Source: Litoreibacter roseus
Lineage (GTDB): Bacteria > Pseudomonadota > Alphaproteobacteria > Rhodobacterales > Rhodobacteraceae
Assembly (NCBI RefSeq): GCF_009811795.1
Contig: NZ_BLJE01000002.1
Coordinates: forward strand, 248,001-312,000
DNA: 64,000 nt
Reading direction: 5' to 3'
The notes below the pieces were generated by a model. That model did no database searches. It saw nothing but the letters and a program-made list of their open reading frames with translations, and was not told the origin of the DNA. Positions 16,188 through 41,120 of this stretch are shown here, piece by piece (the stretch's first letter is position 1; each line of letters opens with the position of its first letter). The position numbers and the translations under genes are program-made.

Positions 16188-16921
16188 GGGCCGCCCTCCT
16201 CTGGTTTGAATGCGGCCAAGGGGTTTTTGCCCTGCCAACTGCCGACAGCCTCGCGCACCGCAAACCGGGCGTAGAGCTCTTCCGAGAACCAGTCACCGGC
16301 GCGGACCGCTTTGATCGCGCGCGCATGCGGCCCATCTTTGCGGGCGAAATGGCTCATGCTGGTCAGATCAGGCCAGATTGAGAACGTCACTTGGTGGAAC
16401 CATGGCACTTCCCCAACCCCGATCTTGAATAAAACCGAGGAGTCGCTGCCAATCACGGTACTGATTGCGGGCACCCGTTTCCAGAATTGTAGCGCCACGG
16501 ATGGTTTGATCGTAGCCCGCGTCAACGCAGCGATCGGTCCGTCATCCGTGGCGGTACCAGGCTCAAAGGGGTTAGCATCTGACCATCGCCCCCGCACCGA
16601 CGACGTCTGCAAAAACACGGTCCAATGTTCTGCGCATTTGTTGCGATATCGATTGAATAGACCCTCGTCCTCCAACCGGGATTTGGCGATGTCGAAGGAC
16701 GGCCAAACCGCGAGGATGGCATACACCTCGGTGTTGGGGACGGGTGTAAATCCTTCCCCCGTTCCGCTGCCGAAAAGCTTCCAGAACTGGAGGTCTCGGA
16801 TTCGTTTCATAGGGCGTCTGGCAAGACCCATTTGAGCGAACGCCCAAAGCCGTCCGTACGCGGATGGAAACCGAAAGAAGCTGAGGCTTACGGTTTGTAT
16901 GGCGACTCTCCCGATCGACAT
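16184..16921 (-). CDS. crtA: Spheroidene monooxygenase
   Basis: CrtA adds the 2-keto group to spheroidene, giving spheroidenone, the red carotenoid of oxic cells. The 245-residue protein has the family's QTVSLSFFRF opening, FWKLFGSGTGEGFTP, and KIGVGEVPWFHQVTFSIWPD. The ATG is the only start ahead of the conserved N-terminus. It has no Shine-Dalgarno sequence and is one base from a PpsR-type operator, suggesting a leaderless or near-leaderless message. It is the first gene of the crtA-bchIDO operon and divergent from crtI. Confidence 0.95.
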   Translation of the reverse strand: MSIGRVAIQTVSLSFFRFPSAYGRLWAFAQMGLARRPMKRIRDLQFWKLFGSGTGEGFTPVPNTEVYAILAVWPSFDIAKSRLEDEGLFNRYRNKCAEHWTVFLQTSSVRGRWSDANPFEPGTATDDGPIAALTRATIKPSVALQFWKRVPAISTVIGSDSSVLFKIGVGEVPWFHQVTFSIWPDLTSMSHFARKDGPHARAIKAVRAGDWFSEELYARFAVREAVGSWQGKNPLAAFKPEEGGP

Positions 16922-16922
16922 G

Positions 16923-16940
16923 TGTCAACTAAGTCTGACA
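16923..16940. promoter_or_regulatory. PpsR/CrtJ operator, crtA side
   Basis: TGTCAACTAAGTCTGACA matches TGT-N12-ACA and the tighter TGTC-N10-GACA form. It is one base upstream of the crtA ATG. PpsR (encoded in this window) is the expected repressor under oxygen and high light. Confidence 0.85.
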
Positions 16941-16968
16941 TAACTGGGTTCGGTTTGAAAGGAATTGT

Positions 16969-22492: not shown

Positions 22493-22510
22493 TGTCCACT
22501 ATAACTTACA
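22493..22510. promoter_or_regulatory. PpsR/CrtJ operator between crtD and crtE
   Basis: TGTCCACTATAACTTACA matches TGT-N12-ACA. It partly overlaps a perfect GGACAGCTGTCC palindrome and follows a TTGACA hexamer (22474-22479), so it could block promoters of both crtD-crtC and crtE-crtF. Confidence 0.8.
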
Positions 22511-22547
22511 CTATGACTGTAATCAAAAGCGGACAGAGGGGTGGGCG

Positions 22548-37360: not shown

Positions 37361-38647
37361 TTATTCCCCCGGGACAAAATGAGATGTTTGCGTATACGTG
37401 TTGCGTTCGATCACCCGCGCGGCCATCAGGCCCGCGATCAGGAAAAGGCTTCCCTCGACCAGAAAAACGGCGCCGAAAGCATCGGCATCGGTCATCAGCG
37501 GGCGTAGGATATCGACGGCGGCGGCACCCAGAAGTCCGCCAAATCCAGCCGCGACTGCTTGCGCGGCGCCCCAAAGACCCATGCGGGTGCCTTCGCGGCG
37601 GGACTGACCCTCGCCTGCCAGCTGCATCATCGACCCGATGGCGGCCACGGCGAAGGCTCCGTTGGAGAAACCCAAGAATACTGTTGCGGGCAGAAGCAGG
37701 TTTTCCTGCTGCGTCTGACCGATGAAGAAAATCCCAAAAAGCGCGATGGCCGACAAGGCGCAGCCCACGACGACCCAATGGCGCAGCGCGCCCAGTTTCA
37801 GCCCTGTGGCACAGATGCCGACGCAGATCATGCCCAAGAAGACGCCGCCGTTCTGTGCGCCGGACAGGGATGTCGTCTGACCGGGGGTGAGGCCGAAGAC
37901 GAGGCCCGCGTAAGGTTCAAGGATCAGTTCCTGCATGAAATACGCGGTCATCGACAGGAAAACGAAGATGGTGAAATTGCGGGCCTTGGGCTCGGCCCAG
38001 ACCTCTTTCATGCCGGTCATGAAGGGAACGGCGACGGCGGGCGTCTGTGGCTGGCTGACCCGACGCTCGATCCCCCAGACGGCCAGAGTTGTCAGGACGA
38101 CGGCACCTGTGGTGACGATGGCCACGATCTTCAGCAGAAGCGCGGGGGTGTAAGGATCAAGGAACGCGCCAACGGTGCCTGCGGTCACTGCAATGCCTGC
38201 GATCATCATCAGCCAAGTGATCGTCGCGGCGGCAGCGCGGCGGCGGGGATGGGTGGCCGTGGCCAGAAGCGCCAGCAGGGATGTGCCGGACGCACCCACG
38301 CCCAACCCGATCAGCGCGTAGGCAAAGACTGAGATAAGAAGCCCTGTGCTCAGGCTCTGTTCCAGCTGAATAACGCCGAGCGCGGCCAGAAAACCGCCTA
38401 GGGCCAAGGCAACCATGCCGCCGATGATCCAGCGGGTCCGGCTGCCGCCCATGTCTGACAGAAAGCCCCAGTTCGGCCGGGTGATCTGAATGCCGTAATG
38501 CAGCGCGACCAGAAGGCCGGGCAGGACGGCGGGTAATGCAAGCTCCACCACCATGAGGCGGTTGAGGGTGGATGTGGTCAGAACGACAATCGCGCCCAAC
38601 GCCATCTGCACCAAACCAAGGCGGACGATGGACAGCCAGCTGAGCAT
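37361..38647 (-). CDS. PucC-family MFS protein, orf428 type
   Basis: A 428-residue, roughly 12-helix membrane protein of the BCD/PucC/LhaA family of the major facilitator superfamily. The start MLSWLSIVRLGLVQMALGAI overlaps the bchG stop; a longer in-frame extension is spurious. It sits between bchG and bchP, as does orf428 (also called bch2) in R. capsulatus. These proteins are thought to pass bacteriochlorophyll to antenna apoproteins. It is a second paralogue beside lhaA in this window. Confidence 0.92.
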   Translation of the reverse strand: MLSWLSIVRLGLVQMALGAIVVLTTSTLNRLMVVELALPAVLPGLLVALHYGIQITRPNWGFLSDMGGSRTRWIIGGMVALALGGFLAALGVIQLEQSLSTGLLISVFAYALIGLGVGASGTSLLALLATATHPRRRAAAATITWLMMIAGIAVTAGTVGAFLDPYTPALLLKIVAIVTTGAVVLTTLAVWGIERRVSQPQTPAVAVPFMTGMKEVWAEPKARNFTIFVFLSMTAYFMQELILEPYAGLVFGLTPGQTTSLSGAQNGGVFLGMICVGICATGLKLGALRHWVVVGCALSAIALFGIFFIGQTQQENLLLPATVFLGFSNGAFAVAAIGSMMQLAGEGQSRREGTRMGLWGAAQAVAAGFGGLLGAAAVDILRPLMTDADAFGAVFLVEGSLFLIAGLMAARVIERNTYTQTSHFVPGE

Positions 38648-39546
38648 CAGACGAGCCCCCGAAGCGCGAAAGCGGCCACCATCATGCCGGTCACATAGAG
38701 CGCAACGCCGGTGCCGTTGTACCACGGCGCCTTTGCGCGTGGGTCACGGATCAGGATGGTCATGGCCCAGATTTGCAGACCCAAGAGTGCCGTGATGGCG
38801 AGGGCGAAATAGGGTCTATCCCAGCCCAAAAGTAGGAAAATCACCCCGATTTGCGACAGGGTCATCACAGCGCAGGCCACCAGGGCGGCGCGCGCGGGGC
38901 CAAGGGTGACGGGCAAGGAATTTACGCCAGTTTGGCGGTCGCCTTTCAGCGCCTTGAAATCGTTTAAGGTCATGATGCCATGGGCGCCTATCGCGTAGAG
39001 CATGGCGATGGTTATGATCCGCCAATCGGGCAGTCCGGCGGACAGGACGGCGGCGCCTGTGAACCACGGCAGGCCTTCGTAGCAGAGGCCAACCAGACCG
39101 GGGCCCCACCAACCGGATTTCTTCAGACGAACGGGTTCGGCGGAGTAGGCCCATGCGGCGGCAACGGCCGCACATGTTGCGGCAAAGCCCCATGGTCCAA
39201 GGGCGAGACCGACCAGCAAGGACAAGGCGGACATGCCGAGTGCGATGTAAAGCCCCCATTGACCGGGGACGCGGCCCGATGGAATAGGACGTTCGGGTTG
39301 ATTGATGGCGTCCACGTGACGGTCGCACCAGTCATTGGCGGCTTGGCTCATCCCGCACACAATGGGACCGGCCAACAAGATGCCGAGACCCACCAGCCAC
39401 AGGTTTTCCAAAGGCGAGACGCCGACTGAGACCACGCCGCACAGATAGGCCCACATGGGTGGAAACCATGTAATCGGCTTCAATAGGCGCAGAGCGGCTG
39501 CGGGTTCGGGGTAACGACGTCGTTGTAATGTGTAGCTGACAGTCAT
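38647..39546 (-). CDS. bchG: Bacteriochlorophyll synthase (geranylgeranyltransferase)
   Basis: BchG, a UbiA-family membrane prenyltransferase, esterifies bacteriochlorophyllide a. The protein has 299 residues. Mg-diphosphate motifs SQAANDWCDRHVDAINQPER (about residues 67-86) and LNDFKALKGDRQTG (about 206-219) are present, as is the WFPPMWAYLCGVVS opening. The ATG has no Shine-Dalgarno sequence and is one base from a PpsR operator, with TATAGT 11 bp upstream, suggesting a leaderless message. It heads the bchG-orf428-bchP-idi operon. Confidence 0.96.
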   Translation of the reverse strand: MTVSYTLQRRRYPEPAAALRLLKPITWFPPMWAYLCGVVSVGVSPLENLWLVGLGILLAGPIVCGMSQAANDWCDRHVDAINQPERPIPSGRVPGQWGLYIALGMSALSLLVGLALGPWGFAATCAAVAAAWAYSAEPVRLKKSGWWGPGLVGLCYEGLPWFTGAAVLSAGLPDWRIITIAMLYAIGAHGIMTLNDFKALKGDRQTGVNSLPVTLGPARAALVACAVMTLSQIGVIFLLLGWDRPYFALAITALLGLQIWAMTILIRDPRAKAPWYNGTGVALYVTGMMVAAFALRGLV

Positions 39547-39547
39547 G

Positions 39548-39565
39548 TGTCAACTTAACTATACA
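39548..39565. promoter_or_regulatory. PpsR/CrtJ operator at bchG
   Basis: TGTCAACTTAACTATACA matches TGT-N12-ACA. It lies one base upstream of the bchG start and overlaps a TATAGT hexamer read towards bchG. The arrangement GTTGACAC-ATG on the coding strand is identical at crtA. Confidence 0.82.
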
Positions 39566-39642
39566 AACTGAGTCCCGACAAGAATTTTAACCGAGGCAAA
39601 AGGCCCCAGTTCCTGGTTCGGCTTGAAATGGCTGTAGGCGCC

Positions 39643-41064
39643 TCAATCCTTGGGGGATTTGTCGAGCAAATTGTACTTGCGCAGCTTCACATAGAGGCTC
39701 TGACGGCTGAGGCCCAGCATCTCGGCCACGGCGACGCGGTTGTTGCCGGTCAATTCGACGGCGGTCTCGATGCAGATCTTCTCAATCACGTCGGTGGTCG
39801 CAGCGACGATGTCTTTCAGGGGCGATGAGCCGACCAGATCGACGATGTCGTTCATCCGGTGGGTGCTGTCCTGCTCGTCTTGGCTGCGCAAAAGATCGCC
39901 GCGCGAGGCGTCCCGCAGGATAAAGGCGAAGTTGGATTGGGGGCCGTCATCCAGACGCGTGGCCGAAATCTCGACCTGACGCGAGGATCCGTGGCTGCCC
40001 ACAAGCTGCGTCGCGTAAAGTTGCATCCGACCGGCGCGGGTGGCGTTTTCCAGCAAGACGTTGCTGTCGATCTTGCCGCGCACGAGGAAATCGGCGATGG
40101 GCCGCCCCTTCACGCTGGACATCAGCGCGATATCGGTCAGGCCAAGGAACGCTTCGTTGACGAAGCGGATGACGCCCCGGTCGTCGGTGAAGACGATCGC
40201 ATCGACGCCTTTCTGAAACAGGGTTTCCAAGCCGCCCGAGATTTCGATGTCCGCGCCGTCGGTGGCGGTCTCGGTCTCCAACCGGCATAGGAATGTCCGT
40301 TCGCCCGCTGCCCGGAAGAGCGTTGGATGAATGCTGATCTTGCGCCCGCTGCGCCGCGCGACGACGCTGACGCCGGACTTGATGTTCTCGGCAGAGGCCC
40401 CGGCCAGGCTGTCGATGAAATCGTCTGAGCCGTTTGCCTCAACTTCACTTTCCAGATTGCACCCGACAAGTGCCTCGGCACTGCCGCCCAGAACGCGGGC
40501 TGCGGCCTGATTGCAATCGGTGATCCGACCCGATGCGGCGCTCATCAGAACGAGGGCGTCCTGAGAGGTTTCCATCAGCACACGGTAGCGGGTCTCGAAA
40601 TCGCGATGCGCCTCGTAGTCACGTTCCAGCGCCAGTTGCGCTTTGACAAGCCGTTGTTGCAACTCGGCGATGGCGCGCATGTCCCGACCCAGCATCAGGA
40701 TGCGCCCGTCCTGGCCGGTCAGGTGGAAGCTGTAGCTGATCGGGAACTGCCAGTTGGCGTTGTCGAAATGATTGACCTCGACGGCGGGAATGATCTGGGC
40801 CTTGCCGCGGCGATAATCCTCGATGATCGACATCACGCGGTTCACGCTGTCTTCCGCCAGAAACTCGCAGATGTTGCGACCCTTCCAGTGGTCCAACTGA
40901 CCCATAGTCTTTGTCAGGGGGTTGATCGTCACCATTTCGATTTCGCCCGTGTTGGTGACAACGATGGCGATATCCGCTGCGGTCGCGATGACCTGATTGA
41001 TGTAGTCAGGTGCAACCTGTGGATCGGCATTATCGATCCAGAACCCAATCTCTCTGATGTTCAT
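39643..41064 (-). CDS. ppsR: Transcriptional repressor PpsR (CrtJ)
   Basis: Redox- and light-responsive repressor of photosynthesis genes, 473 residues. Three PAS-like regions lie at about residues 20-125, 160-260 and 270-390, and a Fis-type HTH lies at the C-terminus (NNRVAVAEMLGLSRQSLYVK). A cysteine just before the HTH (EKICIETA) is in the position of the redox-active C-terminal cysteine of Rhodobacter PpsR/CrtJ (alignment needed). The start chosen places the first PAS region at the usual distance; two starts 8-9 codons upstream (GTG, ATG) are possible. No good ribosome site precedes any of them. It lies directly downstream of ppaA. Confidence 0.95.
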   Translation of the reverse strand: MNIREIGFWIDNADPQVAPDYINQVIATAADIAIVVTNTGEIEMVTINPLTKTMGQLDHWKGRNICEFLAEDSVNRVMSIIEDYRRGKAQIIPAVEVNHFDNANWQFPISYSFHLTGQDGRILMLGRDMRAIAELQQRLVKAQLALERDYEAHRDFETRYRVLMETSQDALVLMSAASGRITDCNQAAARVLGGSAEALVGCNLESEVEANGSDDFIDSLAGASAENIKSGVSVVARRSGRKISIHPTLFRAAGERTFLCRLETETATDGADIEISGGLETLFQKGVDAIVFTDDRGVIRFVNEAFLGLTDIALMSSVKGRPIADFLVRGKIDSNVLLENATRAGRMQLYATQLVGSHGSSRQVEISATRLDDGPQSNFAFILRDASRGDLLRSQDEQDSTHRMNDIVDLVGSSPLKDIVAATTDVIEKICIETAVELTGNNRVAVAEMLGLSRQSLYVKLRKYNLLDKSPKD

Positions 41065-41120
41065 ACCAACGTACCTATGCTTCGACATCACTATGTCAAA
41101 GACTCAACCGGTCTTCCAGA

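Follow-up and report, generated by a model that had tools for sequence, protein, structure and literature searches.

How is bchG, the gene for bacteriochlorophyll synthase, transcribed and translated when a PpsR-type operator ends one base before its start codon and no Shine-Dalgarno sequence precedes it? A first-pass annotation of the window, the whole 64-kb stretch of DNA analysed here, had noticed this arrangement at bchG, had seen the same one at crtA, and had proposed a class of PpsR-repressed leaderless promoters. Family-wide comparison bears out most of what was said of bchG and dissolves the class. We consider it likely that bchG is a PpsR-repressed leaderless gene whose AUG is flanked by paired operators, with a possible input from CcrM and GcrA.

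The bchG locus and the operator at its start codon

The following features define the locus.

39643..41091, minus strand: ppsR, the presumed repressor gene and upstream neighbour of bchG (TIGR02040, above cut-off)
38647..39546, minus strand: bchG, bacteriochlorophyll synthase (NCBIfam NF005742 and TIGR01476, both above cut-off)
39546-39544, minus strand: ATG start codon of bchG
39548..39565, minus strand: operator M, a PpsR-type TGT-N12-ACA, TGTATAGTTAAGTTGACA, covering the -10 element and ending one base before the bchG ATG
39524..39541, minus strand: operator C, a second PpsR-type TGT-N12-ACA, TGTCAGCTACACATTACA, inside bchG codons 2-8 and separated from M by 6 bp

On the minus strand ppsR is followed after 96 nt by bchG, and the product models match PpsR and a (bacterio)chlorophyll synthase. 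We found BchG in 164 of 394 genomes of one family and read the upstream DNA for 130 of the 164, about one locus per genus. All 130 have a matching ATG. More than one candidate ATG was present at six loci; L005, L094, L103 and L127 were set by eye, and otherwise the most upstream ATG was used. A second set of 80 named loci, less 21 duplicates of the first set, gave a further 59. As the bchG loci are related by ancestry, the counts that follow are not counts of independent events.

An exact TGT-N12-ACA begins 19-21 nt 5' of the bchG ATG at 107 of the 130 loci, and a site with at least five of the six operator bases begins at -19 to -22 at 116. Of 73,019 upstream positions used as a control, 6 match exactly. 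Operator M is also exact in 49 of the 59 named loci, where the ATG was picked so as to favour this site. Judged from the upstream DNA of these genera, the operator-abutting layout is far beyond chance. The first-pass annotation had described the site as ending one base 5' of the ATG, which is where we find it, and had named a layout unique to this strain as the outcome that would speak against its reading; for bchG the layout is clearly not unique. As is expected of a PpsR/CrtJ-repressed promoter, operators overlap the bchG promoter, two of them exact, and ppsR is encoded. Within the window TGT-N12-ACA occurs 17 times, against 8.5 expected.

An identical GTTGACACATG at bchG and crtA had been offered as further support. 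Both exact copies are indeed present, with no other in the 4.47-Mb genome, but about two copies are expected of any 11-mer, and we discarded the shared sequence as evidence for the layout because it does not exceed chance.

Operator M is absent from 14 of the 130 loci (L018, L028, L030, L031, L081, L098, L116, L129, L130, L137, L141, L143, L157 and L159), 10 of which retain the operator in the coding sequence. At L134 the start-abutting operator is degenerate. Median ungapped identity between genera is 0.42 from -38 to +23 of bchG, compared with 0.26 from -125 to -61, which is near random. Because sequence beyond -60 is near random between genera, the core around the start has probably been kept by selection.

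The promoter register and a GANTC site in its spacer

A scan for consensus sigma-70 promoters found no consensus site at bchG, and after this the promoter elements were derived from family columns, using the 116 loci that could be aligned on operator M.

39576..39581, minus strand: bchG -35 element TTGTCG (CTTG core at 39579-39582), in a register conserved in the family
39570..39574, minus strand: GANTC (GACTC on the bchG strand), a CcrM methylation site between the bchG -35 and -10
39553..39558, minus strand: bchG -10 element TTAAGT in the family register, with a 17-bp spacer, at -12 to -7 when counted from a +1 at the A of the ATG

Counted from the operator's first bases (op+0), the 116 aligned loci share a conserved -35 register at op -16 to -11. 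In the 60 loci of offset 19, CTTG(C) occupies op -17 to -13 (C 95%, T 98%, T 98%, G 96%, C 75%). A TATAGT-like hexamer stands at op +7 to +12 after a 17-bp spacer, with A in the fourth place in 88% and T in the sixth in 98%. These -10 columns are absent from operator C: in the offset-19 set T at +12 is found in 98% of the M sites, compared with 26% at the matching position of C. Conservation and spacing are read directly from the aligned DNA, and they indicate that bchG has a specific promoter in a layout common to most of the related genera examined. This would be a sigma-70-type promoter with its -10 inside the PpsR operator. The fit in the window is imperfect, TTAAGT matching TATAAT at three of six places. 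A register scan scored op+0 higher (3.30) than op+7 (2.98); op+0 would give a 10-bp spacer.

The spacer carries a further signal. At 90 of the 130 bchG loci a GANTC has its first base between -32 and -28, where 0.94 would be expected at the local rate, and the other 40 have none in this register; the site recurs in 43 of the 59 new named loci. Widening the region to -45 to -16 gives 97 of 129, compared with 48 of 1291 background windows, and the corresponding region of crtA has GANTC in 8 of 109 loci. The genome encodes GcrA (PF07750) and a CcrM-like methylase with a RAMA domain, so that a GANTC within the promoter is accompanied by both proteins expected at a CcrM/GcrA-controlled promoter. 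For the L324 ORF the best match is NF050803, the Caulobacter CcrM model, at 638 bits, which is below the curated cut-off of 830. GcrA-type sites are located between -35 and -10.

It is possible, if somewhat doubtful, that this GANTC is no methylation switch and simply belongs to the core promoter or serves another protein as a binding site. Its place 5-7 nt from the -35 TTG would suit such a role, as would the preponderance of cytosine at N (76 of 102 sites). However, the site's distance from the -35 varies by 2 nt, each of the four bases is found at N, and single changes from GACTC hit N in 18 of 21 cases (p = 2e-10). This degeneracy, which is plain in the alignments, is that of the CcrM target. 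GANTC is otherwise rare: the window holds 54, compared with 234 expected from composition (about 4.5-fold fewer) and a shuffle mean of 309.5. Finally, CGACTC is the CcrM-responsive motif of ftsZ and mipZ, where it is required for activation by CcrM (PMC3708114).

A methylation switch at bchG can be modelled on these two Caulobacter promoters. The CcrM methylation state of the spacer GANTC, probably read by GcrA with sigma-70, would set the strength of the bchG promoter. The likeness lies in a conserved CGACTC upstream of +1 (PMC3708114); ftsZ and mipZ are cell-division genes without PpsR, and at bchG the methylation effect is a prediction. The extended motif YGAKTCK is found at 57 of 90 bchG promoter sites compared with 28 of 123 background sites, a preference that B. 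subvibrioides does not have (PMC7987155). In that species many genes with a promoter GANTC are unresponsive to CcrM (PMC7987155). In the Alphaproteobacteria GANTC is described as rarer than expected overall and more frequent than expected between genes (PMC3973325). An input from CcrM and GcrA at the bchG promoter is, on this pattern, possible. We found no link between CcrM or GANTC and photosynthesis genes or bacteriochlorophyll among the literature matches listed. The site may be a first hint, at the level of sequence, of CcrM methylation touching a photosynthesis gene; if it is, chromosome replication may be linked to pigment synthesis.

Two smaller observations belong here. The first-pass annotation reported neither this GANTC (39570-39574) nor operator C (39524-39541). 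Elsewhere in the cluster, single GANTC sites lie close to several PpsR-type operators (24625, 42063 and 42202) and near the start of ppsR (41101).

The start of the bchG transcript, and crtA compared

39546, minus strand: predicted transcription start of bchG, the A of the ATG, seventh base after the -10

The -10 hexamer ends 6, 7, 8 or 9 nt before the bchG ATG in 60, 42, 13 and 1 of the 116 loci, that is, at the 6-8 nt expected of a leaderless gene in 115 of them. If transcription begins at the A of the ATG, the -10 lies at -12 to -7 and the -35 at -35 to -30. As both positions are then canonical, a leaderless bchG mRNA is the best reading. Runs of at least four bases of AAGGAGG upstream of bchG occur at 7 of 130 loci, a random level (8.8% in random 15-mers), compared with 77 of 109 for crtA. 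The start is thus free of a Shine-Dalgarno sequence throughout the family, as had been noted for this strain. In the window an in-frame TGA two codons 5' of the ATG makes an upstream start unusable.

Transcription of bchG would accordingly begin at the A of the AUG, giving a leaderless mRNA translated without a Shine-Dalgarno sequence. The conserved register places +1 at the ATG or within about 2 nt of it, and a leader of a few nucleotides is possible; the earlier estimate of a +1 within about 5 nt of the ATG agrees with this. Among the matches listed in the literature on bchG, we found no mapped 5' end of its transcript.

The earlier estimate rested on a different hexamer. TATAGT is present at 39558-39563, 11 bp before the ATG as described, but it does not fit as the -10, since it would leave a 12-bp spacer to the conserved -35, compared with 17 bp for TTAAGT, and the family -10 lies 5 bp downstream. 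We discarded it on this spacing. A transcript using TATAGT would start 3-6 nt before the bchG ATG, giving a short leader that would still be translated without a Shine-Dalgarno sequence. TATAGT matches TATAAT at five of six places and recurs in a relative of the same genus (L004) and in L257. These two loci nevertheless keep CTTG or CTTC in register, with TTTACT and TTTAAT at op+7, the hexamer arises partly from the operator's left end, and across the 116 loci it is op+7 that stands 17 bp from the -35. We regard this short leader as unlikely.

It is less likely still that most bchG expression comes from transcripts reading through from ppaA-ppsR, with the upstream elements of bchG binding PpsR and no leaderless transcript being made. 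The gene ppsR ends 96 nt before bchG and shares its strand, which would allow this, no terminator-like site was found between the two genes, and the C-terminal end of PpsR lies within 500 nt upstream of bchG at 81 of 129 loci. At the remaining 48 of 129, however, there is no recognised PpsR end upstream, and at least 34 of these 48 retain operator M; moreover, the -35, -10 and GANTC between the operator and ppsR are conserved.

The predicted leaderless start of bchG has a precedent in R. sphaeroides, where the acuR-acuI-dddL transcript is leaderless with +1 exactly at the acuR AUG (PMC3017554). The two are alike in having a repressor operator over the promoter, no Shine-Dalgarno sequence, +1 at the AUG (predicted for bchG) and motifs centred on -10 and -35 (PMC3017554). 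They differ in that acuR is an autoregulated TetR-family gene with acrylate as inducer, whereas bchG encodes an enzyme and has PpsR, an in-gene operator and a GANTC (PMC3017554). As a metabolic gene with a deeply conserved start layout, bchG is a candidate for leaderless expression in Gram-negative bacteria.

crtA had been put forward as the second gene of this kind.

16955..16960, minus strand: crtA -35 TTTCAA, family register
16932..16937, minus strand: crtA -10 CAGACT, family register with a 17-bp spacer, placing a predicted +1 at about 16925
16923..16940, minus strand: crtA operator TGTCAGACTTAGTTGACA, a TGT-N12-ACA match
16919-16921, minus strand: ATG assumed as the crtA start in the first-pass annotation, one base past the operator
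16906..16912, minus strand: crtA Shine-Dalgarno sequence GGGAGAG, of a kind enriched at crtA starts (77 of 109)
16898..16900, minus strand: ATA, the likely true crtA start, in a family column of ATG, ATT, ATC, GTG, TTG and ATA

CrtA was found in 165 genomes; 110 crtA loci were read and 109 used, L232 having yielded no start. At the column of residue 8 the 109 loci have 34 ATG, 25 ATT, 11 ATC, 5 GTG, 3 TTG and 2 ATA, and the remaining loci have a canonical codon one to five codons upstream of it. AUU, AUC or AUA appears to stand behind a Shine-Dalgarno sequence as the start in 38 of 109 loci (crtA loci L033-L062 and L163-L242), and in 15 of the 38 there is no ATG, GTG or TTG in frame between the preceding stop and this start. 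A rare start codon that recurs in this way may be under IF3 control. In 101 loci a distance of 12-51 nt, usually 14-22 nt, separates the end of the crtA operator from the start. Both promoter elements of crtA, a CTTTTC-like -35 that begins at -21 and a CAGACT-like -10 at +3 to +8, lie 4 bp upstream of the bchG register. crtA, to judge by its family, is a gene with a leader, a Shine-Dalgarno sequence and often a rare start codon.

That crtA is nonetheless leaderless at ATG 16919-16921 is improbable. This ATG is in frame, one base past the operator and some 4 nt away from where the crtA transcript is predicted to begin, yet a relative of the same genus (L035) has no ATG at its crtA operator, the family start column lies 21 nt downstream behind a Shine-Dalgarno sequence, and residue 8 of the crtA ORF is where the NCBIfam CrtA model begins. 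We therefore discarded crtA as a second leaderless gene on the family comparison. Here uniqueness to the strain, named in the first pass as an adverse outcome, does count against the annotated start. With the crtA start downstream behind a Shine-Dalgarno sequence and its register shifted, bchG and crtA do not form a two-gene class; the comparison corrects that proposal and also improves the assignment of the crtA start codon.

A crtE-like gene was also considered and rejected. The site pair 22493-22510/22518-22535 reads operator-CT-ATG-AC-operator, but its ATG is not in the reading frame of the gene, whose likely start is ATG 22548 behind an SD-like GAGGGG; the gene would hence not be leaderless. 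Where bchG has its -10, the stretch 22493-22535 before this gene has TATAAC. In the crtA leader (-22 to -1) GANTC occurs at 30 of 109 loci compared with 2.8 expected, and at 16904-16908 in the window; several of these overlap the Shine-Dalgarno sequence (GGAGTC) and may be CcrM sites or an effect of the SD sequence.

The operator in the first codons of bchG

The second bchG operator begins at +5, with an exact match at 62 of the 130 loci and at least five of six bases at 89; it is absent from 41. It is separated from operator M by 6 bp at offset 19, 7 bp at offset 20 and 8 bp at offset 21. The codons beneath it are unusual. Codon 7 is TTA in 49 of 67 leucines compared with 23 of 1559 elsewhere (p = 2e-60), isoleucine is encoded by ATA in 24 of 32 cases compared with 32 of 736, codon 2 is AGT or ACT in 80 of 99 compared with 44 of 322, and GTG is avoided at codon 3 (1 of 106 compared with 448 of 1133). 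This constraint is visible in the codon counts themselves, and the conclusion we draw from it is that operator C forces rare TTA and ATA codons in bchG. The peptide M-S/T-V-S-x-x-L-H is conserved, M1 and V3 being invariant in 10 proteins, but that the operator is a mere by-product of it is highly improbable and was discarded on codon bias, as synonymous choice tracks the operator and the R. sphaeroides ChIP-seq motif (PMC4344238) falls on codons 2-8.

In that ChIP-seq study of R. sphaeroides PpsR, bchG-pucC-bchP is listed with the motif TGTAAGGATAGATTGACACT and an expression value of -8.03 (PMC4344238), which we read as repression. TGTAAGGATAGATTGACACT is the reverse strand of bchG codons 2-8 in L134, which we take to be R. 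sphaeroides, and the set contains it nowhere else, on either strand. Gene and repressor are the same as here, and the motif is the coding site. In the passages of the report consulted we found no statement that the site lies within the gene, and none on the start-abutting site, a leaderless layout or the GANTC (PMC4344238). PpsR binding at bchG together with an effect on expression is shown for R. sphaeroides only (PMC4344238).

The closest structural parallel is R. capsulatus bchC, where tandem PpsR/CrtJ operators consist of two TGT-N12-ACA sites 8 bp apart (PMC6199135). bchG is alike in having two close sites, the first over the -10 region; its gap is 6 bp (7 or 8 bp at offsets 20 and 21). 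Unlike at bchC, the second bchG site is in the coding sequence, where it shapes codons 2-8, and the start codon lies between the sites. Under repressing conditions PpsR would occupy two operators 6-8 bp apart, one over the -10 and +1 and one in codons 2-8, presumably binding them cooperatively. A PpsR pair flanking the start codon would then block RNA polymerase, like the tandem CrtJ sites of bchC.

Much of this is known in kind: tandem PpsR sites, PpsR control of bchG, a leaderless acuR and CcrM-activated promoters all have precedents. The start-flanking geometry, the coding operator with its codon cost, the cross-genus prediction of a leaderless gene and the GANTC were not found stated in the passages of the literature consulted. 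Operator C is a case of an operator dictating codon choice inside a gene. A broader reading is plausible but still tentative: across the family, replication-linked methylation, through CcrM and GcrA with sigma-70, and the redox and light repressor PpsR may converge on a single leaderless bchG promoter with one repressor site in the first codons. If this is true, the last step of bacteriochlorophyll synthesis, and with it pigment synthesis, would be coupled to the cell cycle.

A third exact TGT-N12-ACA, beginning at -52 to -58 just upstream of the -35, is present at 23 of the 130 bchG loci. It occurs at 17 of the 41 loci without operator C compared with 6 of the 89 with it (Fisher p = 5e-6, a value that ignores phylogeny). 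The third site is thus found mostly where the coding operator is lacking, as though the second operator had changed its place.
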